Part shown: positions 4,966-39,023 of the stretch, piece after piece | Position numbering within the stretch: position 1 is the first letter of the stretch | Layout: the number at the start of each line of letters is the position of its first letter | IMG/VR virus record: IMGVR_UViG_3300022751_000011 | Span: 1-39,023 of that record | Strand: one strand, 5' to 3' | Length of the DNA stretch: 39,023 nucleotides | Source: a virus | The notes under the pieces: generated by a model | What the model saw: only the letters and a program-made list of their open reading frames with translations | Told to the model about the DNA's origin: nothing | Databases searched by the model: none | Translations under genes and position numbers: made by a program

Positions 4966-4980
4966 ACAAATATAAAAAAC

Positions 4981-4998
4981 GTTCTTTAACAATTTATC
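4981..4998 (+). promoter_or_regulatory. boxA-like antitermination sequence in the early leader
   Basis: GTTCTTTAACAATTTATC lies about 10 bases after the expected start of the rightward early transcript. It closely matches the boxA region of proteobacterial rRNA leaders (GCTCTTTAACAATTTATC type), which recruits NusB-S10 and makes polymerase resist termination. The early region runs about 7 kb with several hairpins, so antitermination would make sense. The match is visible in the sequence; the function is inferred. Confidence 0.6.
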
Positions 4999-5070
4999 AA
5001 AAAACATAAAGTTTTTGCTAGCTAAAAGTTACCATAAAATAATCCTTTTAGTTAGAATTTTTAATTACAA

Positions 5071-22548: not shown

Positions 22549-22551
22549 TAT

Positions 22552-23481: not shown

Positions 23482-23482
23482 T

Positions 23483-23968: not shown

Positions 23969-23971
23969 TAG

Positions 23972-24376
23972 TTAATCCTTAAATCTAAATTGTTCTTGTG
24001 TCATTGTGTATATTAACAAATCGCCATGCCTACCTGCATCTTTAATCGTAGCTTCATGTATAGCACCTAGTTTTGATGTAAATTTAACACTTTTAATATT
24101 TGTACTATCAATAAATGCTATGGTTTTTAATACTTTTAATTGCTTAAATGGGTATCTAAAGCCTGCCTTTATAAATTTTTTGGTAAATAAATTACCAGCT
24201 ACATGCATGGCGATAGAACGATTGGGAATATAATTATTATAAACAAAACCTGCTACTAACTCGCCATTTTTTTCTAAGCCAATTGTTGTACTGTCTTTTT
24301 TAGTATACAATCCGCCAGTTTTTTCAAAAACCCATGTGCCTACTCTTAAATCTTGTCCGAAGATGATTTGTAACAT
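23972..24376 (-). CDS. GNAT-like acetyltransferase fold protein (134 aa)
   Basis: A 134-aa protein with features of the GNAT fold: 'IGLEKNGELVAGFVYNNYIPNRSIAMHVAG' (beta strands leading to the acetyl-CoA region) and near the C-terminus 'FIDSTNIKSVKFTSKLGAIHEATI', the common 'N..S.r...klGf..eg' end. The R/Q-x-x-G-x-G/A CoA loop is not clear, so catalysis is uncertain. I start it at 24376, whose ATG overlaps the previous stop (TAATG); a longer frame from 24421 would overlap the upstream gene by 46 bp. GNAT-like genes at this place in podovirus structural operons are known, function unproven. Confidence 0.7.
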   Translation of the reverse strand: MLQIIFGQDLRVGTWVFEKTGGLYTKKDSTTIGLEKNGELVAGFVYNNYIPNRSIAMHVAGNLFTKKFIKAGFRYPFKQLKVLKTIAFIDSTNIKSVKFTSKLGAIHEATIKDAGRHGDLLIYTMTQEQFRFKD

Positions 24377-25935
24377 TAAAACGTATTCCCAACTTGATAA
24401 ATATATTGAGTATTCGCCCACCTAAACGGCTCACGGCAAGCTACTTTTATATGTAAAGCTCCTGCAAATCCCATGCCGTCTATATCAAACCAATCAGAAA
24501 TAAAATCCTCACCTGCCCATACATTACTATCCCAAGTTGCCTCGTCCCATATTCCGTCGCCTGTATTTGGTAATGTTGGTGTACTTAATTGATTAGTGAT
24601 TTTATAGTTTAGTTCTATACCTACATTCACTTGATTAGTAGAATATGTACTTAAAGTAAGTCTAGCTAATTTAAAAGCTTTTTCTGCTGGCGTTCCAAAT
24701 TGATTAAATGATGTAATGACTTCTGCATTAATTACTGCACTGTTATCTGTAGTGTTTTGCCAAAATGTAAATGTTTTACCAGCCCCGCCAAAATACATCA
24801 CTTCATCAAAGAGTAAAAAACAATTAGCATATATTTGGTTAAATTCAGCCCATGCCCCTGTAATCGTATTCATTACATACTGTTTTTGCTGTCCAACTGC
24901 TACGGGAATATTAAGAAGTAACATATTTTCATTAGGATATGCTATCGTTTGCCAACCATAATTTAATGCGTAACTTGTAGTATCTCGGTTAATATCAGGT
25001 GCTATATTATCAGTTAAAGCAGTTTTTGCCCTAGCAGTATCTGCAAAGAATTGACCTTGACTAAGTGCAGATAATCCTTGTTGTGTAAGCACTAATAAAT
25101 CAGTTCCAAGCCTGCAAAACGGCATATGTCCAATAGGCGAACCTAAATTATATATTCCTGCTATTTTCCAATCGCTGGCCGTATCAGGGTCGTCGCCTTG
25201 ATATACTACTATATCACCCTCAGTGCTTAGAAATACGGTTAAATCTTGAGTACCAAAACCGCCCGTAATACTCCATGAACTTATAGCCTTTAAATATCCG
25301 CCTTTAATAAAACTAGCTCCTAAATCCAAGCTTTTCGCAACTCCGCCAATAGAATTGACATCTAAATACCATGCTTTAGTAGTAGACTTTTCTACGAACC
25401 AAAGACGGCGTTTAGCTAAAGTTACATAGCTTAAATTAGCAGTTGTAACCCCTGTTATAGCTGGCGTACTAGCTCCGTTAATTGGTATCCATATAGCGCC
25501 GTCATAAAGCAATAAATCATCTACCCCATTAACCGCAACTAAAAAAGTGCCTCCGCTAGTGGTTATATTTTGAGATATAAATTTATCACTAGCAATTGGC
25601 GTATAACTAACTGTAGCAGTTCCGCTAGCTGTTGCATCATAAATTGTATCCCCTGCTACTGCAAACATCTTTTTACTAAGTCCGTTATAGCCCATTAAGC
25701 TATTTACTTGTCCTGTTATATCTAAACTGTACTCTTTATAACCGTTTCTAACCATTAAATCTGATGTGGTCGGAAACCAATTAATTAACTTAGAGGCATA
25801 TTCAGGTTTTAAATTAGCGATATTATCTCTACTATTTAAGCCTTTATTTGGAACTGGCAAACTAGCACTCCTAGAATTACCGCTTCTATTTATTTGTCTA
25901 GGGCTTATAGGTTTATATCCGCTTCTAACCACCAT
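24376..25935 (-). CDS. Head-tail stabilisation/tail hub structural protein (519 aa)
   Basis: A 519-residue beta-rich protein without repeats of known enzymes. The pattern of blades ('KKMFAVAGDTIYDATASGTATVSY', 'DDLLLYDGAIWIPING', 'RRLWFVEKSTTKAWYLDVNSIGG', 'DLLVLTQQGLSALSQGQFF') suggests a beta-propeller, as in P22 gp10-type plug or stabilisation proteins and similar podovirus proteins that start with 'N.G.......LKPEYA..L.NWFPT..GL..R.GY'. That N-terminal signature ('NIANLKPEYASKLINWFPTTSDLMVRNGYKEY', residues 38-69) is clear. The role is closure of the neck after packaging. Overlaps the connector gene upstream by 11 bp. Confidence 0.75.
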   Translation of the reverse strand: MVVRSGYKPISPRQINRSGNSRSASLPVPNKGLNSRDNIANLKPEYASKLINWFPTTSDLMVRNGYKEYSLDITGQVNSLMGYNGLSKKMFAVAGDTIYDATASGTATVSYTPIASDKFISQNITTSGGTFLVAVNGVDDLLLYDGAIWIPINGASTPAITGVTTANLSYVTLAKRRLWFVEKSTTKAWYLDVNSIGGVAKSLDLGASFIKGGYLKAISSWSITGGFGTQDLTVFLSTEGDIVVYQGDDPDTASDWKIAGIYNLGSPIGHMPFCRLGTDLLVLTQQGLSALSQGQFFADTARAKTALTDNIAPDINRDTTSYALNYGWQTIAYPNENMLLLNIPVAVGQQKQYVMNTITGAWAEFNQIYANCFLLFDEVMYFGGAGKTFTFWQNTTDNSAVINAEVITSFNQFGTPAEKAFKLARLTLSTYSTNQVNVGIELNYKITNQLSTPTLPNTGDGIWDEATWDSNVWAGEDFISDWFDIDGMGFAGALHIKVACREPFRWANTQYIYQVGNTF

Positions 25936-26851
25936 AATAACCCCAGCTACCCTCAGCGATATTTAAACCATAATAGTCATTTAATAAATAATCACTACCC
26001 ATAATAATATCTTGTCCGCCTCCGCCGTCCTCGCCCGCTAATTGGCTTAGATGATTTTCATAGATATTATAATCCTCATCATAAGGTAAGCCTCTATCAG
26101 CTTTAAAACGCCAAATAAGACTTTCAGTTAATAATTCTTCATCAATCAAAGTAGTGTCTACATCTTTAGTAAATTCAGTTTTGTAACTCTGATTTTCGCC
26201 GTCTATCACATAAGCATTTGAGCGATACAGTAAACTATATGGGTTAACGCTTTGCGGGTATGGGTCTAAAATAATTGATTTATTTTGTATCATAAACCTA
26301 TTAGAAAAACCAGCATATAAACCATTACGTGCTTTTATCCATTGTGCTTGTGCTGGTGTAATCTGCCATGAATACCACTGCGTATTATTTAAGGGAAAGT
26401 ACGTGTTTGGTATTAGACTAGAATAATCAACTGGTAAATCATAGCTTATTTGACTAAAAGTATATGTACTACTGCCTGTAGCCGTTGCATTTTGAATATT
26501 ACCCAATGTCACTGTAGTTGGCGTAACTGCTGTAACTATAGCATAGGCTGGTATATTTAAGCCTGTAACGCCATATCCAACTATAATACCTGTAGTGTCA
26601 GCTAAAGTTAAAATATTACTGCCTAAAGTAGTGCTAGCGGTTACTTGTAAAAAATAACTATTAAAACTAAATGACTTGCGTAAAAAGCTCCACCCCGCAT
26701 CTTTAGCTGGATAGCGTATTATTTCCTTACCACCCTTATTTGCATAAGCTACGAGCTTTAATATTTGCTTATCATAGCTAGTTACTGCTTCATTAGGCTT
26801 ATTTATTCCTAAACTTAGGCATGCATTTTGTACTACAGTTAATAATGTCAT
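25925..26851 (-). CDS. Head-to-tail connector (adaptor) protein (308 aa)
   Basis: A 308-aa protein with the plan of podovirus head-tail adaptors (P22 gp4 type): a helical start 'TLLTVVQNACLSLGINKPNEAV', a 'RYPAKDAGWSFLRKSF' segment, a beta insertion rich in Thr/Val (residues about 70-125), 'YDLPVDYSSLIPNTYFPLNNTQWYSWQ', and a helical end 'EELLTESLIWRFKADRGLPYDEDYNIYENHL'. The pattern 'P.Df...........' followed by 'a..w..d' is typical. Its ATG coincides with the end of the previous stop (TAATG). It probably binds the portal ring and the 519-aa hub. Confidence 0.8.
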   Translation of the reverse strand: MTLLTVVQNACLSLGINKPNEAVTSYDKQILKLVAYANKGGKEIIRYPAKDAGWSFLRKSFSFNSYFLQVTASTTLGSNILTLADTTGIIVGYGVTGLNIPAYAIVTAVTPTTVTLGNIQNATATGSSTYTFSQISYDLPVDYSSLIPNTYFPLNNTQWYSWQITPAQAQWIKARNGLYAGFSNRFMIQNKSIILDPYPQSVNPYSLLYRSNAYVIDGENQSYKTEFTKDVDTTLIDEELLTESLIWRFKADRGLPYDEDYNIYENHLSQLAGEDGGGGQDIIMGSDYLLNDYYGLNIAEGSWGYYGG

Positions 26852-27468
26852 TATTTACTTTTAGATTTAGTTTCTTGAGTTTGTGCGTTTTGCTGTGCTA
26901 ATAATTGCTGTATTTGTGCCTGCATTTCTGCCAGTGCTTGTTTATCGTGATTTCTTTCATTGATTAACATTTCATTTTGCTGTATGACTTTATTAATAGC
27001 ATTAGCATCTGTTTTACTATCTAAATATGTGATTGCTTTTTGTTTTAACATAGCAATGCCACGTCCTAAACTATGTATAGCACTATCAGGAACACCAGAC
27101 AACTGCTCTACAGTAAATATATTTTGATTGTTTAAGTTTATTACATCAGCTTTGCTAAATACCGCTACTGTAGCTAATGAAGTCCCCTCATGTTGAAAAT
27201 CTGCACCCTCTTTAAATAATTTATATTGAGCTTCAAACATTTTTGCTTGTTCAGCTGGTATCAATTCATTATTTAACATTCTTTTCATTAGGCTACGGTA
27301 ATGGTCTACTTCATGAACTGGCATATAATTTTTATCGCCTAAAGTGATAACTTGTACCATATCGACATCTTCAAAAGTTTTATTATCATCGTTGCCAATT
27401 TCTTTTACACCTACAGAAAATCTATATTGTGTTATTGGTATTTGATTTTGCATATTTTGATTTTGCAT
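26851..27468 (-). CDS. Virion assembly-associated protein with C-terminal coiled coil (205 aa)
   Basis: A 205-residue protein. The middle part ('VPDSAIHSLGRGIAMLKQKAITYL', residues about 125-150) is a moderately conserved-looking segment; the C-terminus is a Gln-rich coiled coil (about 160-200). The N-terminus has duplicated 'MQNQN', so the start could be either Met1 or Met6. It lies between the decoration-like and connector genes, downstream of a strong hairpin. No family identified; a minor head or assembly role is inferred from position. Confidence 0.65.
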   Translation of the reverse strand: MQNQNMQNQIPITQYRFSVGVKEIGNDDNKTFEDVDMVQVITLGDKNYMPVHEVDHYRSLMKRMLNNELIPAEQAKMFEAQYKLFKEGADFQHEGTSLATVAVFSKADVINLNNQNIFTVEQLSGVPDSAIHSLGRGIAMLKQKAITYLDSKTDANAINKVIQQNEMLINERNHDKQALAEMQAQIQQLLAQQNAQTQETKSKSK

Positions 27469-27487
27469 ATTTATTATTCCTTTGTTA

Positions 27488-27508
27488 AAGTGGTCTAGTA
27501 GACCACTT
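27488..27508 (-). terminator. Perfect hairpin after the capsid-decoration genes
   Basis: AAGTGGTCT-AGT-AGACCACTT, a perfect 9-bp stem with 3-nt loop, 6 bp after the stop of the 274-aa gene. On the minus strand only TTTAAC follows, so it is more likely a partial terminator or an mRNA-end stabiliser that keeps capsid mRNA high relative to downstream genes. Confidence 0.6.
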
Positions 27509-27513
27509 ATCGT

Positions 27514-28338
27514 TTAAGTTATAGCACCTTGTGCAATTGGACGATTAATATACATTAACGTTCTACCAGCACCTACTGCTAATGTAATTTGATTACTAGC
27601 ATTGCGTTTAGTAGGTTCAGAGAAAATTATATTAAATCCCGCTGTGTTACTAATAACCCCAGCATATACAAATTCAGCACCTAATACCTGTTTACTTGCT
27701 GTAACTGTGCTTCTAACTGCACCAATACCGCTATAATAAACCGCACCAACTGCAATAGTTCCTGTAGCTTGAACAATTGTTAAGCCCTGCACTTTACCCC
27801 AAAACCATTGGCTAGCCCATACTGTACGTATCGCCACTGCTAAATTTTTACCAGTATTAACAGTACCGTCCCAAACTCTAGCACGTTTAGTAAATACACC
27901 GCTTACAACACTGTAATCATTTTCAATTACTTGGCCTGCTGTAATTGGTGCAGCGGTATAAGTTCCAACAACTGTAGCACTGCTATTGGCTACAACTAAT
28001 GGAATTGTAAATGTTGTAGTGCTTGGTACTGTTGCGATTGTATAAAGACCGCTAAATGTACTAGGTGTTTGACCTATTAATTTAACTTGCCCGCCTGCTA
28101 AAAGTCCATGCGGTGCAGCGGTTGTTACTAATGCAACATTACTGGTTACTGCAATGCTTGATATAGTTTGACCTGTTATATCCGTGCTTGGTGCTTGAAC
28201 ATAAATAGCTTCTCCGCCCTTTAATGTCTCATTGGTATAAGCAATAATCTGATTATCACAGTTTACCGTTCCGTAGGGCGGATTATCATCAGCTCCATTT
28301 GTGGCTAAAGTGCCTAAAATTCCTTCTTGTATTCCCAT
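27514..28338 (-). CDS. Probable capsid decoration/head protein (274 aa)
   Basis: A 274-residue beta-rich protein, Thr/Val/Ala-heavy, with no enzymatic motif. It contains a stretch resembling a ubiquitin-activating-type or Ig-like beta insertion ('TAAPHGLLAGGQVKLIGQTPSTFSGLYTIATVPSTTTFTIPL', residues about 75-120), a module often seen in virion proteins. It lies 9 bp after the major capsid gene, the classic place of a decoration or cement protein, and a strong hairpin follows it, as expected for highly expressed capsid genes. Annotated from position and composition. Confidence 0.7.
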   Translation of the reverse strand: MGIQEGILGTLATNGADDNPPYGTVNCDNQIIAYTNETLKGGEAIYVQAPSTDITGQTISSIAVTSNVALVTTAAPHGLLAGGQVKLIGQTPSTFSGLYTIATVPSTTTFTIPLVVANSSATVVGTYTAAPITAGQVIENDYSVVSGVFTKRARVWDGTVNTGKNLAVAIRTVWASQWFWGKVQGLTIVQATGTIAVGAVYYSGIGAVRSTVTASKQVLGAEFVYAGVISNTAGFNIIFSEPTKRNASNQITLAVGAGRTLMYINRPIAQGAIT

Positions 28339-28347
28339 ATTGCCCCC

Positions 28348-29325
28348 TTAAGCGTAAAGAACGCCCTGTAAGCGTCTGTTAGTTGTAATCATAGCACCTG
28401 CCCAGTCTAAATATTTAACCCAAGCATTTTGGTTATTTGAATATCTTTCACCTTCCATTGGCTTGAAGTTACGGCTACTTGCTGTAATAAATTTAATATA
28501 GTCTAAATTTAAGAAATAGCTAGTATCAGGATCCATTGTTGAACCCACACCGCCACCGTTCATTACTCTAATGCCTTGATATTCAATAGTTCTAATACCG
28601 CCGTTTACTTTATTACTATTTTCAGGCATAAAGCGAGTGTTAGTCCATAAATATTGTTGTAACTTAGCATAATCATTCGCACCAGCAACAATTAAATCTA
28701 TACCATCACCGCCACGTGTTGTATTAGTAATCATATAGTCAAAGTATTGGCCTATATTTGTAGCCGATTTAGCAGCACCAAAAAAGGCAGTAGCACTAAT
28801 GCCAAGATTACGCCAAAACGCCCATTGTGAGCTGTCAATACCGCCAACAATACCGCTATTAGGATTATTAGGAACTAAACCGCCTAAACCAATAAATGAA
28901 CGTCCACCGTCTTGTGTGCCATCTAAAAAAACCGCTGCACCAAAACGGTTGGCAATAGTTTTTTCTGCATTTTTCATTCTACCCGCTGCTAATTCAAAGA
29001 TGCGGCTATCACCTGCATTTTGCAATTTTTCTAAAGCGCTCATCATGATAGGGATAGAGTATTCTTTCCATTCGTAATCAACGGCAGTAAACACATCGCT
29101 ACGAACTGGATTAAGTAGCTCATAACCACTATAGAATTGTCCGCCTGCATTTTCTGCGTATTCAATATTTCGACGTATAAATTCTCCGCCGTCGATTAAT
29201 TCCATATTTCCCTTTTCTTTTAGAAACTGGAAAAATGGAACGTTGTTTGACATATTGTCATAAATTGTTGACGAGTAATCATACAACGCACTGGTTGTCA
29301 TTTCGCTTATATTTGGACTTGCCAT
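28348..29325 (-). CDS. Major capsid protein (325 aa)
   Basis: A 325-aa protein that fits phage major capsid proteins of the HK97 fold: an N-terminal helical arm 'SALYDYSSTIYDNMSNNVPFFQFLKEKGNMELIDGGEFIRRNIEYAEN' and central 'SIPIMMSALEKLQNAGDSRIFELAAGRMKNAEKTIANRFGAAVFLDG' (long spine helix), 'GIDLIVAGANDYAKLQQYLW', then 'IEYQGIRVMNGGG' and 'YFLNLDYIKFITASSRNFKP'. No protease domain is fused. A scaffold gene lies directly upstream and a decoration-like gene downstream. A good Shine-Dalgarno (AAAGGAT) precedes the ATG. Function is secure from pattern and order, though the subfamily is not named. Confidence 0.88.
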   Translation of the reverse strand: MASPNISEMTTSALYDYSSTIYDNMSNNVPFFQFLKEKGNMELIDGGEFIRRNIEYAENAGGQFYSGYELLNPVRSDVFTAVDYEWKEYSIPIMMSALEKLQNAGDSRIFELAAGRMKNAEKTIANRFGAAVFLDGTQDGGRSFIGLGGLVPNNPNSGIVGGIDSSQWAFWRNLGISATAFFGAAKSATNIGQYFDYMITNTTRGGDGIDLIVAGANDYAKLQQYLWTNTRFMPENSNKVNGGIRTIEYQGIRVMNGGGVGSTMDPDTSYFLNLDYIKFITASSRNFKPMEGERYSNNQNAWVKYLDWAGAMITTNRRLQGVLYA

Positions 29326-29336
29326 ATTTTTATCCT

Positions 29337-30446
29337 TTAAATTCTTTTGTTGTATGCTTGGGCTTTTTCTCTCATAATATCGGCAAAAGATTTACCTTTG
29401 ATATTTGAGGGTGCATTTTGCCCACCACTATTTTTTAAACTAAGAGTAGCATTTTTCTTATCTGCTGTTTTTTGTTTAACTGCTTCAATCCTTTGCTTCT
29501 CTTTTTCTGCATATTCTTTATCTATCTGTTGTTGTCTAGCCTGTGGATTAAGCCATTTCGCCTTATCATAAGCCTGCTGTAATGCTTCTCTTGTGTCTAT
29601 ATTTGGATTTCTTGCAACAATTACATCAACTAACTCTGACATATCACTTCTAAGGCTATCAAAATCAGGCTTATCCTTAGCAAAATCTGCAATTACTGGA
29701 TTTAACTGCTGTTGCGTTTGGTAAGTCTGCTGTTGCTTTGTTAGATGTTGATTAGTCTGTTGGACTTGATTATTTTGATGCTGTAAATGCTCAATATTTA
29801 ACTGATTAAATGCATTATTCCTTTTTTCAGGGTCTTGCTCAAAATAAAGTTGAAAAGGTATATTATGCTGTTTGCATATACTATCTATTAACTGTAATTT
29901 TTCTTGAGTAGAGCCAGTATATAAAACTTTCGCTACTGGTAATAATGTGCTTACAACCTCTTTAGGCGTTGAATTTAAGCCATGAATTACATCATCATAA
30001 GGCTGTAATGTTTGCTTGATTTCTCTTGCAAACCCAACTTCTTCACTGGTTGAATTTAGTTTATCAACCATTTGTTTTTCACGTTCTGATATAGCTTTTT
30101 GTGCCTCAATCGGGATTTTATCCCATACCTGCTTTAAATCCGCATTCCAAGCATGCGGAGAACTGATTTTTTCTGTTGGTACAGTGTTATCAGCTTGTCC
30201 TGCTGGTGCTTGAGTTTCATTATCCGCAGTTTGAGGTACATCGGGAGTTTTACCCTGTGCATTATCAGTAGTTGCAGTTTTACTATCCGCCGTCGCATCT
30301 AGTGTATTATCTGCTGTCGTGTCATCGTTAGCCGTTTCATCGGCTTTTTGCTTTAAAATCTCAACAAAACTTGGGCTGGTCGCTTCATTATCTACATCTT
30401 GTGTAGTATCATTAGGCAATGCTTGGTTTTCGTTTTCTATACTCAT
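29337..30446 (-). CDS. Capsid scaffold protein (369 aa)
   Basis: A 369-residue acidic, disordered-to-helical protein. The N-terminal 110 residues are Asp/Thr/Ala-rich low complexity; then 'SSPHAWNADLKQVWDKIPIEAQKAISEREKQMVDKLNSTSEEV' (residues about 112-155), a helical motif that I know from podovirus scaffolding proteins. A long Gln-rich coiled coil follows (about 235-335), then 'GQNAPSNIKGKSFADIMREKAQAYNKRI', a basic C-terminal tail that would bind the capsid protein inner surface. It lies directly upstream of the major capsid gene. Role: directs procapsid assembly, then leaves. Confidence 0.85.
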   Translation of the reverse strand: MSIENENQALPNDTTQDVDNEATSPSFVEILKQKADETANDDTTADNTLDATADSKTATTDNAQGKTPDVPQTADNETQAPAGQADNTVPTEKISSPHAWNADLKQVWDKIPIEAQKAISEREKQMVDKLNSTSEEVGFAREIKQTLQPYDDVIHGLNSTPKEVVSTLLPVAKVLYTGSTQEKLQLIDSICKQHNIPFQLYFEQDPEKRNNAFNQLNIEHLQHQNNQVQQTNQHLTKQQQTYQTQQQLNPVIADFAKDKPDFDSLRSDMSELVDVIVARNPNIDTREALQQAYDKAKWLNPQARQQQIDKEYAEKEKQRIEAVKQKTADKKNATLSLKNSGGQNAPSNIKGKSFADIMREKAQAYNKRI

Positions 30447-30447
30447 C

Positions 30448-30705
30448 TTAGTATCCTTTTTGACTTATTACAGTCCCTAATATTTTTTTAAATCCCTCAA
30501 CTGATTTGTCTAGTCTTTTGTCTACATCACGGGCAAATTGTTTTTCGCTATAGTCTGCCTCAACTATCATATCCCTACTACTCATTAAGCCCGTATATAA
30601 TCCTTTATGTGCATATTTAGGATTATAAAAAGGATTATCTTTATTAAAACAACTTAAACAACCAGTTTGTTGTGTATATAAAGAAAAACATTTATCGCAT
30701 TGCAT
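30448..30705 (-). CDS. Zinc-ribbon protein between portal and scaffold (85 aa)
   Basis: An 85-aa protein starting MQCDKC. Cysteines at residues 3, 6, 16 and 19 (CDKC and CLSC) form a zinc ribbon; the rest ends 'VDKRLDKSVEGFKKILGTVISQKGY'. I place the start at 30705, with AAAGG about 9 bp upstream, rather than at an in-frame ATG 57 bp earlier inside the portal gene. It still overlaps the portal stop by 14 bp. Similar small zinc proteins occur between portal and scaffold genes of related podoviruses; their function is unknown. Confidence 0.7.
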   Translation of the reverse strand: MQCDKCFSLYTQQTGCLSCFNKDNPFYNPKYAHKGLYTGLMSSRDMIVEADYSEKQFARDVDKRLDKSVEGFKKILGTVISQKGY

Positions 30706-33004
30706 TATTTTTACCTTTATTCTTATTAGACTGTTTAGCCTGTTCAATACTAGTATTAGCACTTAGTAATGCTAGTTGTTTTTTAGTATCTTCCTGCTTA
30801 TCTATTTTATATAATTCTAAATCTTGATTTTCTCTATCCATTTGAATATCTAACTGCTTTAATTGAATATCTTTTTCTAACTCAATTTGTGCCGTTCTTA
30901 AAGTATCTAAACTTTGTTGTTGTTGTTCATTTAAAGTTGTTTGCTGGTCTAGTTGTGCCTGCAATGCTTTATCTTGTGTTTCTCTTTGAGACTGTAAATT
31001 ATCCATGTAAACATTATGTTCTAATTCCATTTGTTTAACCTGTGGAATTTGTGCCAACTTAGCTTTTTCTAACTCTAATTTAGCCATTTCTAACTGGAAT
31101 TGTTGTTGTTGTGTTTGTGCTTCAAACTGTAATCTTTGCTGTTCTAGCTGTAATTGTGCTTGTTTAGCCTGTTGTTCTGCCTCAACTTTCATCATTTCAG
31201 GATTAGGCGGAGGCTCTTGTGGTTGTAATGCCATTTTTCTAGCATTATCTACTAAAGCCACCATTTCAGCTTCAATACCTTTACCAGCCCTAAATGCCCG
31301 TAATCCATACAATAGCATTTCGCCTAAGACTGGTGCTAATTGTGGGGATTGTTGAATAGCTGGCATTGCTTGTTGCAAGAAACCGCCTACACTTGTAAGC
31401 ATTTCTAATCTGCTAGCTTTTTCTTGTTGTTCATCGGCTCTAATTGTGCTATCTGTTTCAATATCTATTCTAAAGTTTACTAAGTCATCATTTTTAAGGA
31501 ATTTAGCCACCTCTTCCCATGTTGGGTTAAGTAGCATATCCTGCATATCTTCATCAATTTGCAAACCCTGTTGCATCTGCTGTTCTGCTTGCTGTTTTTC
31601 TTTTTCAGTATCAAATAACTTAACATTTGACATCTTTTTCAGCGTATCAGTGTCAAACTTTTCAGCTACGATTTCTACAATAATATTTATAGCATTACGT
31701 AAGAATTGAGAGAATTTATTACGCCTACTAACAAACCTTTGCTTGGCACTCTCTCGTTTTTCTGTAAGCCCTGTTGCTGTTTCGCTAGGGTCTGTTTGAC
31801 CTCTTAATAAATCGCTTATGCCCGTTAATTCATAGATTATTTGTTTTTGACGCTCAAACGCTTGGTATAGATTTTCGAGTACGCCTGCTATTTCTTGTAT
31901 TGGTAACCATTCAACATTACCCTTAGCTCCGCCTTTTTCTGCATATATTCCCCAAGCATTAACCGCTATCATTGTGTTATCAGTTGAACTTCTTAAGGCA
32001 TTAGCTAAAGCAGGGATTTCAGAATTATAAAAGCCTACCACTTTAACAGCTTCGGTGATCATATTTATACGTTGATTTAAGCGATTAAGTGTTGTTAGCT
32101 GGTCTTGATAAATTACATAATCAGGCACAGGAATTAAACAGTCATTTGTTTTGGTTACGTACAAAGGTCTAGGACAAGGGAAAAAGTCTTTTAAATTTAA
32201 GTAATCATCTTTAATGTCTAATGGTTTATCGTGTGTTTTAGTAAGCCAAATTACACGCTTTTTGTACTTATCCCAAACTTCATAGACGCAAACCCTGTCG
32301 CATTTATCATCTTGTTTTTTTAATACAGAACCATTTTTAGCACTGGAATAAGCGTCCATTTTAATGTCTTTGGCTACTTCTTTGCCAAAACGCTGGATTA
32401 TATCCCCGCGTGATAAATAAAGCTTACGCCAAACTGCGTGTACTTCTTCCCACGTGCTGGCTACATTATGCCCAAAGTCACAGTAATTAACATAATCTAA
32501 CTCTACATACTCGTTGTCTAGTTCCTCAACCTCTTCGTCCTCGCCGTCCTCATTCTTTTCTTTATAGCCTGTACCTTTAAAATCAGCATCATACCTAGCC
32601 CATAAAGTAGCTCTAGCGTACAATAAGCCGTCTAAATTACACATATCAAACGCTTCATTAGCATTGCTACAGTCTAAAATAAAGTTACAACAGTTTTCTA
32701 ATACTTCGCTTGCTACTCTAGCTACTGCATCGCTATCTTTAAATCTACGCTCTATTTGCGGTGTTGGTAATTTAGCATAAATTTCAGGTATCATTGTTTG
32801 AATATTAGCCCAAAATATATTTACTTCATTTGGTATATTTTTAGGTCTGTTATTACCACTTAAATTATCGTAATATTGTGATTTATAGATTTTATTAATG
32901 TCTTTACAACGTGAAACCCATGCAGAATATTCGTTCTCGTAGGCCTCAATTTCTGTAAGCCAACGACTAACGATTTTATCTTTTTTGTCTTTATTTTTAA
33001 TCAT
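30692..33004 (-). CDS. Portal protein, P22-like (770 aa)
   Basis: A 770-aa protein, similar in size to the P22 portal (725 aa). The core (residues about 1-560) has typical parts: 'WVSRCKDINKIYKSQYYD' at the N-terminus, 'NIFWANIQTMIPEIYAKLPTPQIERRF', 'EVHAVWRKLYLSR', a stem region 'PVPDYVIYQDQLTTLNRLNQRINMITEAVKVVGF', and the wing/crown 'ELTGISDLLRGQTDPSETATGLTEKRESAKQRF'. Residues about 600-755 are a very Gln/Leu/Glu-rich coiled coil (barrel-like extension). It forms the ring at one capsid vertex through which DNA passes. Overlaps TerL by ATGA. An unusually long Gln-rich C-terminus. Confidence 0.9.
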   Translation of the reverse strand: MIKNKDKKDKIVSRWLTEIEAYENEYSAWVSRCKDINKIYKSQYYDNLSGNNRPKNIPNEVNIFWANIQTMIPEIYAKLPTPQIERRFKDSDAVARVASEVLENCCNFILDCSNANEAFDMCNLDGLLYARATLWARYDADFKGTGYKEKNEDGEDEEVEELDNEYVELDYVNYCDFGHNVASTWEEVHAVWRKLYLSRGDIIQRFGKEVAKDIKMDAYSSAKNGSVLKKQDDKCDRVCVYEVWDKYKKRVIWLTKTHDKPLDIKDDYLNLKDFFPCPRPLYVTKTNDCLIPVPDYVIYQDQLTTLNRLNQRINMITEAVKVVGFYNSEIPALANALRSSTDNTMIAVNAWGIYAEKGGAKGNVEWLPIQEIAGVLENLYQAFERQKQIIYELTGISDLLRGQTDPSETATGLTEKRESAKQRFVSRRNKFSQFLRNAINIIVEIVAEKFDTDTLKKMSNVKLFDTEKEKQQAEQQMQQGLQIDEDMQDMLLNPTWEEVAKFLKNDDLVNFRIDIETDSTIRADEQQEKASRLEMLTSVGGFLQQAMPAIQQSPQLAPVLGEMLLYGLRAFRAGKGIEAEMVALVDNARKMALQPQEPPPNPEMMKVEAEQQAKQAQLQLEQQRLQFEAQTQQQQFQLEMAKLELEKAKLAQIPQVKQMELEHNVYMDNLQSQRETQDKALQAQLDQQTTLNEQQQQSLDTLRTAQIELEKDIQLKQLDIQMDRENQDLELYKIDKQEDTKKQLALLSANTSIEQAKQSNKNKGKNNAMR

Positions 33005-34416
33005 ATTCTGCGGTTATTGCCATAATTGTATTCATTATTATAACTATTTTTTAAGTCGTTGTACGTCATTTGATTATAGCTTGATACTTCATTGCCACTC
33101 GGTATTAATATACTATTATCAGCCCTCATTACTTGGCAACCATAACTAAATCCGTCGCCGTAATGACTAGCCCAATCATGGCGTGGTTTATCGCTAAAGT
33201 CTTTCTTTTCATCATCATAATCATAGCTCCAAGAAGTTAAGCCGTCTAAACCTTTTTTGCAGTTAGTTTTATTAAATTCAACTGTACTAACTGTAGTTCT
33301 AGCACAATTTACCCTATCAAATATACTAGTCTTTGGTACAATCTTTACTTTAGACCAACCAAATTTACGTGCAAAAGTTTCTTGCCAAGTATTTTCAGCA
33401 CTAGCAGTTTCAGCCTTGCCGTCATGAGGTAGCCAAATACAACCTAAATCATTACTGTACTTATCTAATATTAACTGTATCTTGTCGCACCACTCATGGG
33501 CTTTAATACCCCAGCCGTCTAAGCAGTCTATTACTTTACGCCTTGCTTGCCCCGAACTATCTCTATAAACCTGCCAAAACCACCATGTGCTAGCATCTCT
33601 ATGCCCTAAATCACTACTAACTATTATAGAACCGTGTTGTCTTTGATAAATTACATCATCAGCTACACGCCCCTCACGTTCTGCTATTGTTAAATCTCTA
33701 GCTAAAATTGCACCTAAATTCGCAGCATCGAATGAACATAAATATTCTTGTTCAAATCTAGCCGTACCATATTCATAACCATAACTAGCTATATATCTTT
33801 GCTTTATCGTTTCTAGCTTTTCATGGCTGTAAACTCCGCAGTCATAAGCACTTAGTACTTCGCCAAAACTGCCCTTACTTTCTTTGGCTAGTTGTAAGCT
33901 GGTATATGCATGATTGCGACCACGTGGAGTGGTAACATACACACGATACCCGCCGTTCATATCCAATATCGGCTCTAAATAACTACTAGAGTTAGGGTTG
34001 CTTAAAGCCCACTCCGACCAACCTACGCCATTATACGAACCACCTACCAATGCATCGTAATTGTCTGAACCGCTAAACTGTATACTGCTATCATTAAACA
34101 GTATTATTTTCATTTCAGTTTCTAGAGTTTTTTTACGTATCTCATGCGGTATACGTTCGTCTATTCTACGCTTACCAGTAAATGGATTTATCATACTCCA
34201 TATTGCTTTGCGTACTTGGTTATGCTGTGGTAGTAAATGTAAATAACTACCTTGATGTTGTACTGCATAACACACCTCAAAATTTAGTAATATATCATCT
34301 TTGCCATGCTGTCTAGGGTGTACTAACTCACAATGTATATCATACCGCTTGCTGTTTAAATAGTTCCATGACGGCTTTTGATAATGTCTAGGTCGCCAAT
34401 TATGCGGTAGGTTCAT
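33001..34416 (-). CDS. terL: Terminase large subunit
   Basis: A 471-aa packaging motor. The ATPase half shows a variant Walker A 'RQHGKDD' (residues 35-41), Walker B ending in Glu135 ('GVGWSEW'), and a coupling motif 'TTPRGRN' (162-168). The nuclease half has the RNase H-like acidic residues: Asp269 in 'SSDLGHRDAS', Asp in 'WLPHDGKAET' (about 330) and Asp in 'SHYGDGFSYG' near the C-terminus. The Walker A has Asp in place of the usual Ser/Thr after Lys, which is odd but seen in some terminases. It cuts concatemers or circles and pumps DNA through the portal. Starts directly after the TerS stop. Confidence 0.92.
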   Translation of the reverse strand: MNLPHNWRPRHYQKPSWNYLNSKRYDIHCELVHPRQHGKDDILLNFEVCYAVQHQGSYLHLLPQHNQVRKAIWSMINPFTGKRRIDERIPHEIRKKTLETEMKIILFNDSSIQFSGSDNYDALVGGSYNGVGWSEWALSNPNSSSYLEPILDMNGGYRVYVTTPRGRNHAYTSLQLAKESKGSFGEVLSAYDCGVYSHEKLETIKQRYIASYGYEYGTARFEQEYLCSFDAANLGAILARDLTIAEREGRVADDVIYQRQHGSIIVSSDLGHRDASTWWFWQVYRDSSGQARRKVIDCLDGWGIKAHEWCDKIQLILDKYSNDLGCIWLPHDGKAETASAENTWQETFARKFGWSKVKIVPKTSIFDRVNCARTTVSTVEFNKTNCKKGLDGLTSWSYDYDDEKKDFSDKPRHDWASHYGDGFSYGCQVMRADNSILIPSGNEVSSYNQMTYNDLKNSYNNEYNYGNNRRI

Positions 34417-34947
34417 TTATTCGTTATTAACCTCAACATCTGGATTATCGCCTTTGTAAATATTAATATTTATTGGCTTGTTGCCTTTGTTTTCTTCTTC
34501 ACCTGCTTTATCACCATATTTTTTAGCTCGACGTTTAGATAAAATCCATTTGCGGGTATCAACCATCAGCCTAGCCCTACCCACCCACTCACCATTTGCT
34601 ACTTCATAAAGCTCGCCGTTTTTACCCTCTTTAGTTAATGTATCGAGCCTACTATCATCTGCAATATCAAGTAAATCATGCTCCATTAAATCTAGGCGAA
34701 TTTCCATAGCTCGAGCGTATTGGTCTTGAAAGCCTTTGTATATCTCATTAGAACTGGCTAACCAAACAAAAATATTTCCTCTAGCTGGCATATGTTCATC
34801 TTGGCAGATACTTCTTAAAGTTTCATCGGCTATTAATCTTGCACAAATTTCATCACCAACATCTTTAGTATATTTTGTAGGTCTGCCACCTTTATTTTTA
34901 GGCTCGTTCGTAGCTTCAACTTTTGGTTTAGCCTTAGTTTTCGCCAC
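34417..34947 (-). CDS. terS: Terminase small subunit (GTG start)
   Basis: A DNA-recognition subunit of 176 aa. 'NKGGRPTKYTKDVGDEICARLIADETLRSICQDEHMPARGNIFVWLAS' (residues about 15-65) contains the HTH found in many terminase small subunits that start with 'GRPTKY'. 'YARAMEIRLDLMEHDLLDIADD' gives the oligomerisation helices, and the acidic C-terminus would contact TerL. I chose the GTG at 34947 because AAAGGG lies 6 bp upstream; the in-frame ATG at 34962 is only about 9 bases from the predicted transcript start and has no Shine-Dalgarno. Confidence 0.85.
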   Translation of the reverse strand: MAKTKAKPKVEATNEPKNKGGRPTKYTKDVGDEICARLIADETLRSICQDEHMPARGNIFVWLASSNEIYKGFQDQYARAMEIRLDLMEHDLLDIADDSRLDTLTKEGKNGELYEVANGEWVGRARLMVDTRKWILSKRRAKKYGDKAGEEENKGNKPININIYKGDNPDVEVNNE

Positions 34948-34977
34948 GTTACACCCTTTCATATATATTATAAAATA

Positions 34978-35006
34978 ATTATATGAAATAAATTCATAAA
35001 ATGCAA
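34978..35006 (-). promoter_or_regulatory. Late promoter for packaging and structural genes
   Basis: Minus strand: -35 TTGCAT (35001-35006), 17 bp, -10 TATAAT (34978-34983). The expected start is near 34971, just before terS. All genes from 34947 to 16206 follow with gaps of only a few bases. Confidence 0.65.
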
Positions 35007-35040
35007 CAATCATATGAATTTATTTGTAATAATTTTGTAC

Positions 35041-35589
35041 TTAAGTTGTATACAAAACTGATACGGCTATATTTACAGGATTAATTACAAGATTATTAGT
35101 TAATTTTGAACCGCTAGGAATAGGTACAATTATAGGCACATTAGTTGGAAATGTAGCCCCGTTTATATTTACAGTACTAGGCAATAAAGGATTTAAAAGA
35201 TTGCCAGTTCCTGCAACAATAGCACTTTTAACATTACTATAATTAGCTGTAGTATTTCCTGCAACAGTAGCATTGTTTAGTGTTACATTAGTAACAACGC
35301 TAGAACCTGCCCCTGCGGTTGTATCTTGAATAAATGTTAAATTAGCCAAATCTACAGCATTATCTGCAAGTTCTTGTTTAGTATTAACATTCCAGTAATA
35401 TGTATAGTAAGGTTTTATTTCAGTTCCGCCGTCTGATGTATTAAAAAAGCTTTCAAAATCACATTTAAATACAATATCGCCTACTGTCGCACCCGTAAAA
35501 GCGGTTTTAACTTTCCAAAGGGTCTCTTTAATTCTAATTACAGGAACGCCGTTAAATATTGCAAATGGTAAAGATGTAGTTAATGACAT
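35041..35589 (-). CDS. Hypothetical 182-aa virion-like protein
   Basis: A 182-residue Thr/Asn/Val-rich beta protein ('MSLTTSLPFAIFNGVPVIRIKETLWKVKTAF...'), with composition like head or tail surface proteins ('AGAGSSVVTNVTLNNATVAGNTTANYSNVKSA'). No signal peptide or enzymatic motif. It lies upstream of terS, separated by the late promoter, so it is transcribed from a separate promoter in 35590-35932. GGGATAAACT precedes the ATG. A virion role is inferred from composition only. Confidence 0.6.
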   Translation of the reverse strand: MSLTTSLPFAIFNGVPVIRIKETLWKVKTAFTGATVGDIVFKCDFESFFNTSDGGTEIKPYYTYYWNVNTKQELADNAVDLANLTFIQDTTAGAGSSVVTNVTLNNATVAGNTTANYSNVKSAIVAGTGNLLNPLLPSTVNINGATFPTNVPIIVPIPSGSKLTNNLVINPVNIAVSVLYTT

Positions 35590-35703
35590 AGTTTATCCCA
35601 ATAGTTATAGTACTTAAAGTTTAAATTAGCTATTAATAAAGTTCTATTTAAATAAATAAATTGTTGTATTTTTAAATTACATCTTGAATAATGCAAAAAA
35701 CGC

Positions 35704-35750
35704 ATAGTTCACAATTTCAACTAGTGACAAAATGTCACGGATTGAACTAT
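35704..35750. promoter_or_regulatory. Nested palindrome with GTGACAAAATGTCAC core
   Basis: Outer arms ATAGTTCA (35704-35711) and TGAACTAT (35743-35750); inner perfect palindrome GTGAC-AAAAT-GTCAC (35724-35738). A 14-of-15 match to the core (reverse complement of GTCACATTTTGTCAC) lies at 36901-36915, beyond the other end of the three-gene operon. Confidence 0.6.
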
Positions 35751-35862
35751 TCTAGTTATTCGATAAGTTCGATAAGCTTATAACCGCACAATTAATAGGT
35801 TATTATCCCTTAGCAAACCCTTATGGAATATAGCTTTTAATTTATTTTTGGATTAATTTAAG

Positions 35863-35898
35863 ATATTACTTGTATTACTGTGAATATAGTAATATAAT
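35863..35898 (+). promoter_or_regulatory. Rightward promoter with palindromic operator
   Basis: -35 TTGTAT (35870-35875), 17 bp, -10 TATAAT (35893-35898). ATTACT (35874-35879) and AGTAAT (35888-35893) form a palindrome inside the promoter, with another ATATTACT at 35863-35870. Drives the genes from 35933. Confidence 0.7.
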
Positions 35899-35932
35899 TT
35901 AAATATAGAAACAAACAAAAAAGGCGGACAAA

Positions 35933-36400
35933 ATGAATACAGTAAAATATTTTGAAATAAAAAAAATAGTTCATTCATTAAGAATTCAAGCAGAAAAATT
36001 AAACTTTGACGGCAGAAAAAAAATAGTAAAAGAATTTAATAGCAAAAATAATGAATTATGTAAAATTACCTCAAGTTTGCAAAAGTCGTTTTTAACAATC
36101 CCTTGCACAATAAAAGAGAGTAATATTAATAAACAAATTAAACTTACTAAAATTTTAAATAAGCCTATATCAATAAATAAATCTAAAACATCTATTTATT
36201 TGAAAAATATTAGAGTAAGCAATCATTGGCATAATTCATCGTGCGAAAATAAATTTCAAGTAACAGAATATATAAATACTGGATTTTTACAAGGAAATTT
36301 AAATTCAAACATAAATACCACTAAGCCTTTAATTTTTAAGAAAAATTATTTAATCAATAAAAGATTAGTTGTAAAATTTTTAGCACAATATGGAGCATAA
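35933..36400 (+). CDS. Hypothetical 155-aa basic protein
   Basis: A 155-residue very Lys/Asn/Ile-rich protein (starts MNTVKYFEIKKIVHSLRIQAEKL), predicted basic, without clear HTH or membrane segment. 'ISINKSKTSIYLKNIRVSNHWHNSSCENKFQVTEYI' in the second half. AAGGCGG lies 7 bp before the ATG, right after the palindrome-bearing promoter. No family recognised. As first gene of an independently regulated operon flanked by GTGAC palindromes it is a candidate lysogeny or maintenance gene; that is inference only. Confidence 0.65.
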   Translation: MNTVKYFEIKKIVHSLRIQAEKLNFDGRKKIVKEFNSKNNELCKITSSLQKSFLTIPCTIKESNINKQIKLTKILNKPISINKSKTSIYLKNIRVSNHWHNSSCENKFQVTEYINTGFLQGNLNSNINTTKPLIFKKNYLINKRLVVKFLAQYGA

Positions 36401-36401
36401 T

Positions 36402-36614
36402 ATGCCTAATGCAAAAACAGAACATAGCAAAAATCTTAGAGCTTTAAGTTCTAAAAAATTTTATGATAAATTAAGAAAAAATGGAGAAATTAAAACTCTT
36501 TTAGTACATATAAAAGAACCCGAACTAATTTTGATGTTGAGTAAAATATCAAATAAAACTATTTGGGTAAAAAAAGCCCTAAAATTACTAAACGAACATG
36601 GAGAAATAAAATGA
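36402..36614 (+). CDS. Hypothetical 70-aa basic protein, possible DNA-binding regulator
   Basis: A 70-residue protein starting MPNAKTEHSKNLRALSSKKFYDKL. The plan (basic N-terminal helix, then 'TLLVHIKEPELILMLSKI', then a helix) recalls small ribbon-helix-helix-type or plasmid-encoded regulators, but no sure match. GGAG is 6 bp before the ATG at 36402; an in-frame ATG 12 bp earlier overlaps the previous gene and is less likely. The end overlaps the next start by 4 bp (ATGA). Confidence 0.65.
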   Translation: MPNAKTEHSKNLRALSSKKFYDKLRKNGEIKTLLVHIKEPELILMLSKISNKTIWVKKALKLLNEHGEIK

Positions 36615-36862
36615 AAATTAACAAACTACTAGAAACAAATCCGCAACTATGCACAGATATTTTACAAAAACAATTATCAAAATTAAGCATTGTAAAGTTG
36701 CAAAGTTTAAAAATAGAAACGGATAAAAAAGTAAAAAAATTAGATGGATTTCTACAAGATGAATACGGCGATGATTACGATAGTATGCACTTAGATAATC
36801 AGGATAGTTTTATTTATCATTATGTTAAGCCTAAAATCGATGAATTATTAAAATCTAAATAA
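36611..36862 (+). CDS. Hypothetical 83-aa helical protein
   Basis: An 83-residue charged helical protein (MKINKLLETNPQLCTDILQKQ), with an acidic middle ('FLQDEYGDDYDSMHLDNQDS'). The start at 36611 has GGAG 7 bp upstream and is coupled to the previous stop (ATGA); a longer in-frame ATG at 36563 lies inside the previous gene without Shine-Dalgarno. Last gene of the operon; a hairpin follows 6 bp after the stop. No family recognised. Confidence 0.65.
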   Translation: MKINKLLETNPQLCTDILQKQLSKLSIVKLQSLKIETDKKVKKLDGFLQDEYGDDYDSMHLDNQDSFIYHYVKPKIDELLKSK

Positions 36863-36868
36863 CCAACA

Positions 36869-36915
36869 GTCCGCTTTTTGCGGACACTTCAATTCAAACG
36901 GTCACATTTTGTCAC
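36869..36915. terminator. Hairpin and GTCAC repeat between convergent genes
   Basis: GTCCGC-TTTTT-GCGGAC (36869-36885) is a tight hairpin after the rightward operon, but no T-tract follows, so termination is uncertain. At 36901-36915 GTCACATTTTGTCAC repeats the core of the palindrome at 35724-35738 in inverted form with one changed base. Confidence 0.5.
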
Positions 36916-36919
36916 CGCT

Positions 36920-37267
36920 TCAAACCCTAAACTTGGTTATTTTAAAAAACCCATTAAATTTATTTCTATGCTTTATAAATCTATCAATTAAGTCTTTTTT
37001 ATCTGATTCAGCTAGGCTAAAATTACGCTCATGCACGTAAGTATAGCAACTAGCCACTAATGCATACTGTAAAGCCAAATCATCATTACTTTGCAATAAA
37101 TCCATATTGTTGCTTTTAAAGGCTATTAAAGATTTATAGCTTGTTTTATGCCTTTCAAACAGCCTAACTGGTTTAGGTTTATCATAAACACAGTCTTTTG
37201 GAATGTATGGAGTGTATTTATAATCTTGTGTTACTGGTAATGCACCTGACATCATATAACTTGGCAT
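36920..37267 (-). CDS. Hypothetical 115-aa protein
   Basis: A 115-residue protein (starts MPSYMMSGALPVTQDYKYTPY) with a proline/tyrosine-rich first part and a basic helical second part ('HKTSYKSLIAFKSNNMDLLQSNDDLALQYALVASCYTYVHERNFSLAESDKKDLIDRFIKHRNKF'). No family recognised. It follows the nuclease gene by 19 bp in a leftward three-gene group and ends at the convergent hairpin region. TAGGAT precedes the ATG. Confidence 0.65.
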   Translation of the reverse strand: MPSYMMSGALPVTQDYKYTPYIPKDCVYDKPKPVRLFERHKTSYKSLIAFKSNNMDLLQSNDDLALQYALVASCYTYVHERNFSLAESDKKDLIDRFIKHRNKFNGFFKITKFRV

Positions 37268-37286
37268 AAATTTATCCTATAAAAAC

Positions 37287-37580
37287 TTACTTACTTAACT
37301 GGTTGCAAAAATTAACCGCGTCATCAATCGATTTTATCACTATAGCCTGCCCGTTCCATTCCTTAAACCATTTCTCTTGTAGCTCGTTTAACTTTGACTT
37401 GCTGGGCGGTTTAGAACCGTCTTTTATCTCTACCAAGTAATTTACGCCAGCCTTACCAATCATTAAATCTGGACACCCTGATGCTTGAGTATGTAGGTGT
37501 TGGACACTAAACCCCATTTGTCTAAATACTTTAACAATTGAGGCTTGGTTAGCGTCTACTTTTTTGGCGTAATAAGTCAT
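37287..37580 (-). CDS. VRR-NUC-like (PD-(D/E)xK) nuclease (97 aa)
   Basis: A 97-aa single-domain nuclease. The catalytic signature is visible: 'GCPDLMIGKAGVNYLVEIKDG' with Asp38 and Glu51-x-Lys53, followed by 'KSKLNELQEKWFKEW' (Q/E on the following helix) and 'AIVIKSIDDAVNF', the usual ending of phage VRR-NUC-type proteins. Such enzymes cut branched DNA such as Holliday or flap structures and may resolve recombination intermediates before packaging. The start overlaps the previous stop (TAATG). With the Sak4/SSB pair it would complete a recombination set, although it lies in a different operon. Confidence 0.85.
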   Translation of the reverse strand: MTYYAKKVDANQASIVKVFRQMGFSVQHLHTQASGCPDLMIGKAGVNYLVEIKDGSKPPSKSKLNELQEKWFKEWNGQAIVIKSIDDAVNFCNQLSK

Positions 37581-37993
37581 TAATTAAATGTTCTATAGGC
37601 ACTAACTAATGCATTTAAATATTCTGCATGGCAATGTAGCAGTTCAGGTGGATTGTTTGAGGCACTGGCTATATTATCTTTGATAGCCTGTTTTATTAGC
37701 TCTACCAATGTAATTGGCTTTTCTTGCTCAAGGTCTTGTTTATAAGTTTCTTCATCATAAATTGCGTATGACCTCTTATCATCTTCATAATTTTGATATT
37801 GTGAAGTGACACGTCTTGCATGGTTTAAACTATCCTCTAAGCCAACATACCAATTTTTATCTAGTTTATGATATTCTTTAACATCTTCAATTGCTAATCG
37901 GATATACTCCCTTATGCTTTCTAATTTAAGGTCTATAACTTTTCTAGCCTCTATCCATTCTTGCGGTGTTTCCACCTGTTCAACTTCACTCAT
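37580..37993 (-). CDS. Hypothetical 137-aa acidic protein
   Basis: A 137-residue helical acidic protein (starts MSEVEQVETPQEWIEARKVID). 'IREYIRLAIEDVKEYHKLDKNWYVGLEDSLNHARRVTSQYQNYEDDKR' suggests a helical bundle. No motif recognised. First gene of the leftward nuclease group; the upstream 259-bp gap holds two inverted repeats. The Shine-Dalgarno (GCGAG) is weak. A possible minus-strand promoter is TTGTGG, 17 bp, TATTTT near 38030-38060. Confidence 0.65.
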   Translation of the reverse strand: MSEVEQVETPQEWIEARKVIDLKLESIREYIRLAIEDVKEYHKLDKNWYVGLEDSLNHARRVTSQYQNYEDDKRSYAIYDEETYKQDLEQEKPITLVELIKQAIKDNIASASNNPPELLHCHAEYLNALVSAYRTFN

Positions 37994-38806: not shown

Positions 38807-38931
38807 GGTTTACCCTCTTTCATTTTTTGACACTGCTGGCAAGGATTTTTAGGCTGTTGTAAAGGCTTTTTTGGAATAGGGAGTAAATACTCAAGTTCCT
38901 TAGCTACTTTATCCATAAATTTATTATCCAT
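38788..38931 (-). CDS. Small CxxC protein (47 aa) near the join
   Basis: A 47-residue protein starting MDNKFMDKVAKELEYLLPIP. The second half has 'CQQCQKMKEGKPCQP', a CxxC plus a third Cys, possibly metal binding. The start overlaps the stop of the 35-aa gene (8-bp ATGGATAA overlap), and its end overlaps the DUF3310 start by 19 bp. No family recognised; coupling on both sides supports it. Confidence 0.6.
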   Translation of the reverse strand: MDNKFMDKVAKELEYLLPIPKKPLQQPKNPCQQCQKMKEGKPCQPTI

Positions 38932-39023
38932 TTTCTGCCTCTAACTGTTTTAAATATAGTCTAACCTGCTCTCTAGGTAAATCAAGCGTGCAATGCTCTA
39001 TGAAATACTTGCATAGTTCTATT
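38914..39023. repeat. Right copy of 110-bp exact terminal repeat
   Basis: Exact copy of bases 1-110. It holds the 3' two thirds of the small leftward gene given at 11-118 and the start of the gene at 38788-38931. Most likely an assembly overlap of a circle, not a physical direct terminal repeat. Confidence 0.95.
38924..39023 (-). CDS. Truncated second copy of the 35-aa gene (assembly overlap)
   Basis: The 3' 100 bases of the gene given at 11-118, repeated because the contig overlaps itself. Not a separate gene. Confidence 0.85.
   Translation of the reverse strand, partial: IELCKYFIEHCTLDLPREQVRLYLKQLEAENG

Follow-up and report, generated by a model that had tools for sequence, protein, structure and literature searches.

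Why should a phage carry, between two leftward genes, three small genes read in the opposite direction, with a near-identical palindrome in the gap on either side, and what might the operon and the palindromes do? The window analyzed here is the whole of a virus record of 39,023 bases. Its terminal 110 bp are directly repeated (1-110 and 38914-39023), so the genome is circular or circularly permuted, with a length of about 38.9 kb. Family searches identify an Sf6-type small terminase, a portal, and a major head protein among the encoded products, together with a Sak4-like annealing protein, SSB, Gam, and an antirepressor. A Rep_3 initiator is encoded at 330-1064 (Pfam), beside three 22-bp iterons, CTATGTACAAAAACGTACTTTG, at 1446-1514; this terminase-bearing phage has a plasmid-type origin. 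Judged from the replicon, a plasmid-like resident state of the phage is plausible. An early-type promoter, TTGACA-17-TACACT, lies at 4937-5000, with TGTACAGTGTACA in and near its spacer.

The operon spans 35933-36862 on the plus strand, between minus-strand genes at 35041-35589 and 36920-37267, with a palindromic core in each flanking gap (Table 1). The opposed three-gene operon described in an earlier note on this DNA is therefore confirmed. ORF1 and ORF2 are separated by 1 nt, and ORF2 and ORF3 overlap by 4 nt (ATGA). An alternative in-frame start of ORF2 is possible at 36390, and the ORF3 frame was called from a TTG at 36563, with an ATG at 36611. The products had been described as basic or acidic; this holds for ORF1 and ORF2, which are basic, but not for ORF3, which is near neutral. 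The GC content of the operon is 22.9%, versus 32.6% for the window, and does not mark it as foreign because other rightward and replication genes have 24-33%. The terminator-like hairpin is one found against 0.8 expected in shuffles; the minus-strand fold of 36862-36935 has a z score of -4.1.

Table 1. Features of the operon and its flanking gaps, in window coordinates
Feature	Coordinates	Strand	Description
Left bracket site	35716-35746	+	31-bp imperfect palindrome TTCAACTA-GTGACAAAATGTCAC-GGATTGAA; outer-arm fit P 3.9e-4
Operon promoter	35870-35898	+	TTGTAT-17-TATAAT, from sequence; homologous to a promoter of contig L129
Promoter palindrome	35873-35894	+	TATTACT-N8-AGTAATA, from sequence; overlaps the promoter
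Probable ribosome-binding site	35923-35927	+	GGCGG, from sequence; precedes ORF1
ORF1	35933-36400	+	155 aa, pI 10.1; orphan, candidate cargo
ORF2	36402-36614	+	70 aa, pI 10.1; putatively RHH-like, proposed autoregulator
ORF3	36611-36862	+	83 aa, pI 6.7; orphan, candidate cargo
Terminator-like hairpin	36869-36885	-	GTCCGC-AAAAA-GCGGAC; for minus-strand transcripts
Right bracket site	36893-36923	-	TTGAAGCG-GTGACAAAATGTGAC-CGTTTGAA; outer-arm fit P 6.5e-5; identical in relative G001

The left core, 35724-35738, is a perfect 6-3-6 palindrome (GTGACA-AAA-TGTCAC), and the right core, 36901-36915 on the minus strand, has one arm mismatch. No further exact core occurs in the window, and three of its six GTGACA/TGTCAC hexamers fall within the two bracket sites. 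Under a base-frequency model, 0.0034 cores with at most one mismatch are expected in the window and 4e-6 in the right gap. The two gaps contain a 41-nt inverted pair with 73% complementarity. Their match in inverted register has an ungapped score of 17, which none of 500 shuffles reaches (mean 7.7, maximum 12), bearing out the claim that near-identical 15-bp cores flank the operon. That the cores are inverted stands only in part: the two gaps do match better than shuffles in inverted register, but the left core is itself palindromic, and the orientation is not kept in a near relative.

This relative, IMGVR_UViG_3300022930_000015 (G001; 40,467 bp), is collinear with window positions 21834-37586 at 97%, and its operon is identical. 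Twenty-one differences separate the two genomes between 35000 and 37586. They form three clusters, with 6 in 35690-35739, 9 in 37109-37205, and 6 in 37548-37582. Six changes in the 50 bp of the first cluster have a P of 0.0007 if changes are evenly spread. Two further clusters lie in the same stretch, however, so nothing sets the one at the left site apart, and it resembles mosaic exchange. The left 31 bp contain four changes (position -2, two of the three spacer bases, and +1), none of which falls in the core arms or at outer positions 4-6 (chance 0.023, with position classes chosen afterwards). The two sites match at 24 of 31 positions inverted versus 21 direct in the window, and at 24 inverted versus 25 direct in G001; the orientation of the pair is thus not kept.

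The promoter had been called strong and said to contain an operator. Its -10 element is perfect, but its -35 element is weak, and it is absent from the consensus-scan list. A palindrome does overlap it, but an inverted repeat of this kind is present in 69% of 300 shuffles of the promoter gap, so only the palindrome's position in the promoter is suggestive. No second exact copy of the palindrome occurs in the window; with this single copy, the lysogeny repressor that had been suggested is not supported.

ORF2 matches phrog_27481 with an E value of 1.4e-4 over residues 1-38 (PHROGs). By eye, its sequence (MPNAKTEHSKNLR...IKTLLVHIKEPELILMLSKISNKTIWVKKALKLL) is RHH-like with a basic N-terminal arm. 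AlphaFold2, given two sequences, predicts a helix at 4-26, an extended segment at 27-38, and helices at 39-49 and 54-62, with a pLDDT of 55 and no strand assigned. We infer that ORF2 is a small basic ribbon-helix-helix-like protein, with which the predicted fold is weakly compatible. The model has no Foldseek match, and family searches gave no match to Pfam RHH families or to HTH families in Pfam, PHROGs, and NCBIfam. ORF2 has no tblastn match in phages and plasmids. Its profile matches only G001 and L129 among viral contigs, and none of 171 stretches in genome contigs was confirmed. For the ORF2 homologue of L129, plasmids gave no match and phages only six records at E 3-8. Across 398 genomes from the phylum to which an Acetobacter genome belongs, phrog_27481 and A1, searched without a positive control, gave no match, which does not establish absence. 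Weak matches to phrog_27481 carry no meaning: with E allowed up to 1, 7 of 14 control genomes show one.

Searches of Pfam, PHROGs, PADLOC, NCBIfam, and PDB sequences returned nothing convincing for ORF1 or ORF3; as orphans across these five databases, they deserve the description of unfamiliar proteins given previously. The best family match of ORF1, phrog_18344, has an E value of 0.012 and is not convincing. Its only relative found in viral contigs is the identical copy in G001, tblastn in phages gives no match, and its fold prediction is poor (pLDDT 39). Cas6b as an identity for ORF3 was rejected: the PADLOC match (E 0.0043) covers 47 aa only, is too weak, and was treated as chance. Anti-defence and defence families gave no convincing match to either protein. 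Among all three operon proteins, no toxin or partition family was found in Pfam, PADLOC, and NCBIfam, and no NTPase or recombinase family in Pfam, PHROGs, and NCBIfam; PDB sequence searches returned nothing useful.

A distant relative suggests what travels together. Contig L129 (4,987 bp) encodes a TerL 73% identical to that of the window and an ORF2 homologue, 39% identical, that sits divergently upstream of terS and matches phrog_27481 at E 2.3e-10. The two promoters align from the -35 element to the start codon with a score of 30 (shuffle maximum 24, 0 of 500 reaching it); a second L129 promoter aligns with a score of 23 (3 of 500 shuffles). The neighbours of the ORF2 homologue, a 57-aa ORF before it and a 91-aa ORF after it, are unrelated to those in the window, ORF3 being unlike the L129 gene in the corresponding position. 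Promoter palindromes also differ, that of L129 being ATTATGT-N6-ACATAAT, present at two promoters. At L129:330-420 and 1170-1270, the same TTGACA-17-CATAAT promoter-operator precedes two small ORFs, as in a small regulon. GTGACA is absent from L129; the left gap lies within the contig, but sequence corresponding to the right gap may lie beyond its end. Judging from this one distant relative (two lineages, window/G001 and L129), a fixed frame of regulator and promoter seems to be combined with variable flanking genes.

Wider comparison covered 113 TerL loci (80 of at least 541, plus 33), with up to 6-8 kb on each side and many short contigs. No ORF2 homologue occurs in them at E <1, the best values being 1.0 (L142) and 3.0 (L160), and none was found in the sequence examined of viral loci carrying the core. 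One locus, L140, encodes a TerL 47% identical to that of the window; upstream of its terL, and read the same way, lies a gene for a homologue of the window nuclease (42% identity, E 7e-20). The space between them is filled with same-direction ORFs, which the listed opposed ORFs (57 and 106 aa) overlap. Compared with L140, the window operon looks inserted into a transcription unit. The earlier note had proposed an acquired cassette and a comparison of relatives for its presence. The 113 TerL loci gave no ORF2 homologue at E <1, while L129 has one in the corresponding place. An accessory, moron-like operon is the better reading. The sites as limits of acquisition are unsupported: L129 keeps promoter and ORF2 without GTGACA in its contig, although this may stop short of the right gap.

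The explanation that we favor, with confidence just short of an even chance, is a self-regulated accessory operon, consisting of ORF2 and exchangeable cargo, in a circular phage with a plasmid-type replicon. The operon would occupy a variable gap flanked by a nuclease gene on one side and the terminase genes on the other. Acting through the palindrome that occupies the promoter spacer, ORF2 would repress the promoter of its own operon, so that DNA entry leads to a burst of ORF1 and ORF3 followed by shut-off, comparable to the action of Aca proteins on anti-CRISPR genes. As exchangeable cargo, ORF1 and ORF3 would most likely target the host or its defences, and they are possibly anti-defence proteins. 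Should ORF2 be a new Aca-like regulator, it could serve as bait with which to find anti-defence genes in phages where few are known. The bracket sites would be protein-binding palindromes of the kind found between genes in many phages. Their link to the operon is purely positional, and L129 lacks them in the sequence covered. The left site probably separates or regulates the operon promoter with respect to the leftward structural operon, and the right site appears to stand at the end of convergent transcripts.

The palindromes have a wider distribution. The 15-mer core pattern occurs in at least 119 stretches of viral contigs, a count that alone means nothing because rough arithmetic expects about that order by chance. 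Among the matches listed, 53 of 101 deduplicated places with GTGACAAAATGTCAC lie outside ORFs, compared with 397 of 2020 random positions in the same loci (about 20% expected; binomial P 2e-13), where ORFs were called mechanically, so that small genes count as intergenic in copies and control alike, and where palindromes of any kind may be commoner between genes. Collapsing look-alikes among the matches listed left 36 intergenic sites, or 72 halves, whose outer arms were unused in selection. These copies share the outer arms (tt)CARNYY-core-RRNYTG(aa): R occupies +1 in 53 halves and +2 in 55, +3 is free, Y occupies +4 in 59, T +5 in 54, and G +6 in 35, with +7 and +8 nearly free (A in 28 and 25). 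Outer arms are far weaker at the 38 in-ORF sites (76 halves), where +5 is T in 35; the information at this T is 0.80 between genes versus 0.15 in ORFs. Scored with the outer-arm pattern against random window positions, both window sites fit well enough (Table 1) to belong to this recurrent element of about 27-31 bp.

Several intergenic copies adjoin a small gene of microvirus-like contigs (L015, L105, L268, and L278), which we take to be Microviridae from the look of their proteins. Core copies within ORFs include repeats in Vibrio phage genes annotated "replication initiation O-like"; phage D67 has three related repeats in succession in its O-like gene. Repeats like GTGACAAAATGTCAC lie within initiator-type genes of L282 (annotated O-like) and, putatively, of L021, L072, and L115. 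Those of L115 adjoin an AT-rich stretch, and initiator-gene repeats could be internal replication origins. Other in-ORF copies lie in genes that are presumably DinD/BRO-like; the one such protein scanned, from L281, matches Bro-N only at E 0.1. On this Candidatus Megaera plasmid, a short gene annotated as an antirepressor carries the near-palindromic TTTCAACCCGTGATAAAATGTCAC in its coding sequence (L281:3926-4204). Among genomes, the motif was found in 1 of 200 (a DinD-like ORF) and the 31-mer pattern in 0 of 14. A flank scan gave 33 loci apart from that of G001, and in at least eight, some of them near-identical, the pattern lies in a frame coding VTxCHxLK of a presumably DinD/BRO-like protein (L018, L259, L260, L261, L262, L266, L274, and L277). 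Its excess is thus partly protein conservation, and the motif claim was accordingly rested on the 15-mer scan. Exact 15-mer cores were not found in the literature searched, and partial core strings matched articles none of which, by title, concerns this motif. A CRISPR repeat, prompted by the 3' end GGRTTGAAA, was rejected: the bracket sites have no Rfam CRISPR-DR match, one sub-threshold CRISPR-DR25 match lies at 35834-35858, and the multi-copy loci L021, L072, and L115 are not arrays by eye.

The palindrome itself, (tt)CARNYYGTGACAAAATGTCACRRNYTG(aa), which has no name and measures about 27-31 bp, is to our mind the most useful finding here. It is possible, although doubtful, that phages of many unrelated kinds, among them microvirus-like ones, keep it between genes, that a factor common to the hosts reads it, and that the pair of copies here marks off the accessory operon as its own regulatory domain. 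If so, many phages would share one unrecognized cis element, and its binder could be fished with a 31-bp oligonucleotide.

The sites might act more directly on the operon. A phage or host DNA-binding protein could bridge them and loop the operon out as its own domain, with expression depending on looping and not on ORF2. No other such pair occurs in the window, and the opposed operon is exactly what the two sites bracket. Outer arms are retained by intergenic copies elsewhere and are much weaker in in-ORF copies, and the changes in G001 spare the left core arms and positions 4-6 (classes set after the fact). This model is nevertheless rather unlikely, given that no protein is known to bind the sites, that L129 has the same promoter and ORF2 without GTGACA in the contig, and that G001 does not preserve the orientation of the pair. 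Alternatively, the sites could be transcribed hairpins at the operon borders, serving RNA processing or termination, and not protein-binding DNA. Minus-strand RNA folds have z scores of -2.9 at the right site and -2.3 at the left, copies in L038 and L097 are followed by T-runs, and intergenic flanks pair beyond shuffled partners at several positions, as do in-ORF copies at positions 1-2. Against this, neither window site is followed by a T-run, arm position 3 is free and little paired (35% versus 25% shuffled), specific bases are retained at positions 4-6, and the core persists despite changes in spacer and flanks. We regard hairpins as unlikely.

A plasmid maintenance operon, of partition or toxin-antitoxin type with the sites as its centromere, would suit the Rep_3 initiator, the iterons, and a putative RHH-like regulator. 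It is improbable because the operon encodes no NTPase, its proteins match no toxin or partition family searched, and the viral loci with the core have no ORF2 homologue in the sequence examined; as for the partition module suggested previously, scanning 27 window proteins revealed no ParA-like family. A cassette acquired by recombination at both sites, with transposon-like or site-specific inverted ends, would account for the inverted 41-nt pair and the opposed direction but is very improbable in view of the palindromic left core, the equal direct and inverted matches in G001, the lack of a recombinase among those 27 proteins, and the homologous promoter and ORF2 of L129 without GTGACA in the contig. 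An invertible segment found no support.

Returning to the favored self-regulated accessory operon, comparison with known systems places it as follows. The available parts of PMC9410906 and PMC11065993 contain no description of this locus. In archaeal viruses, shared regulatory sequences mark early anti-defence genes, and some of the predicted proteins carry HTH or RHH domains (PMC11065993). L129 resembles these genes, as far as that source describes them, in repeating the same promoter-operator before small orphan genes; the window promoter differs in being bacterial-type and present in one copy only. MatP is an RHH-type protein, and mini-F RepE sites contain TGTGACA. The bracket sites share a GTGACAAAATGTCAC or TGTGACA core with the RepE sites and with the iteron-like repeats of the D67 O-like initiator, but they are two distant single sites and not a repeat array, and the 22-bp Rep_3 iterons of the window are unrelated. 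The matS site of MatP, given as GTGACRNYGTCAC (PMC6907758), has GTGAC and GTCAC arms in common with the bracket sites. In both window sites, the arms are spaced by 5 instead of the 3 of this published matS and outer arms are added. A further parallel is the acr-aca operon. According to PMC9410906, ten promoter sets (Aca families and AcrIIA1) each have an inverted repeat inside the core promoter, the proteins repress, and Aca1-10 are helix-turn-helix proteins. The window operon departs from these in its regulator, which is putatively RHH-like and not HTH and lies between two cargo genes, in its bracket sites, and in containing no known Acr. It resembles them in having its own promoter, and may do so in an inverted repeat in the core promoter, which is not significant by shuffling, and in small, apparently variable genes combined with an apparently fixed gene for a putative DNA-binding protein, as seen in two lineages.
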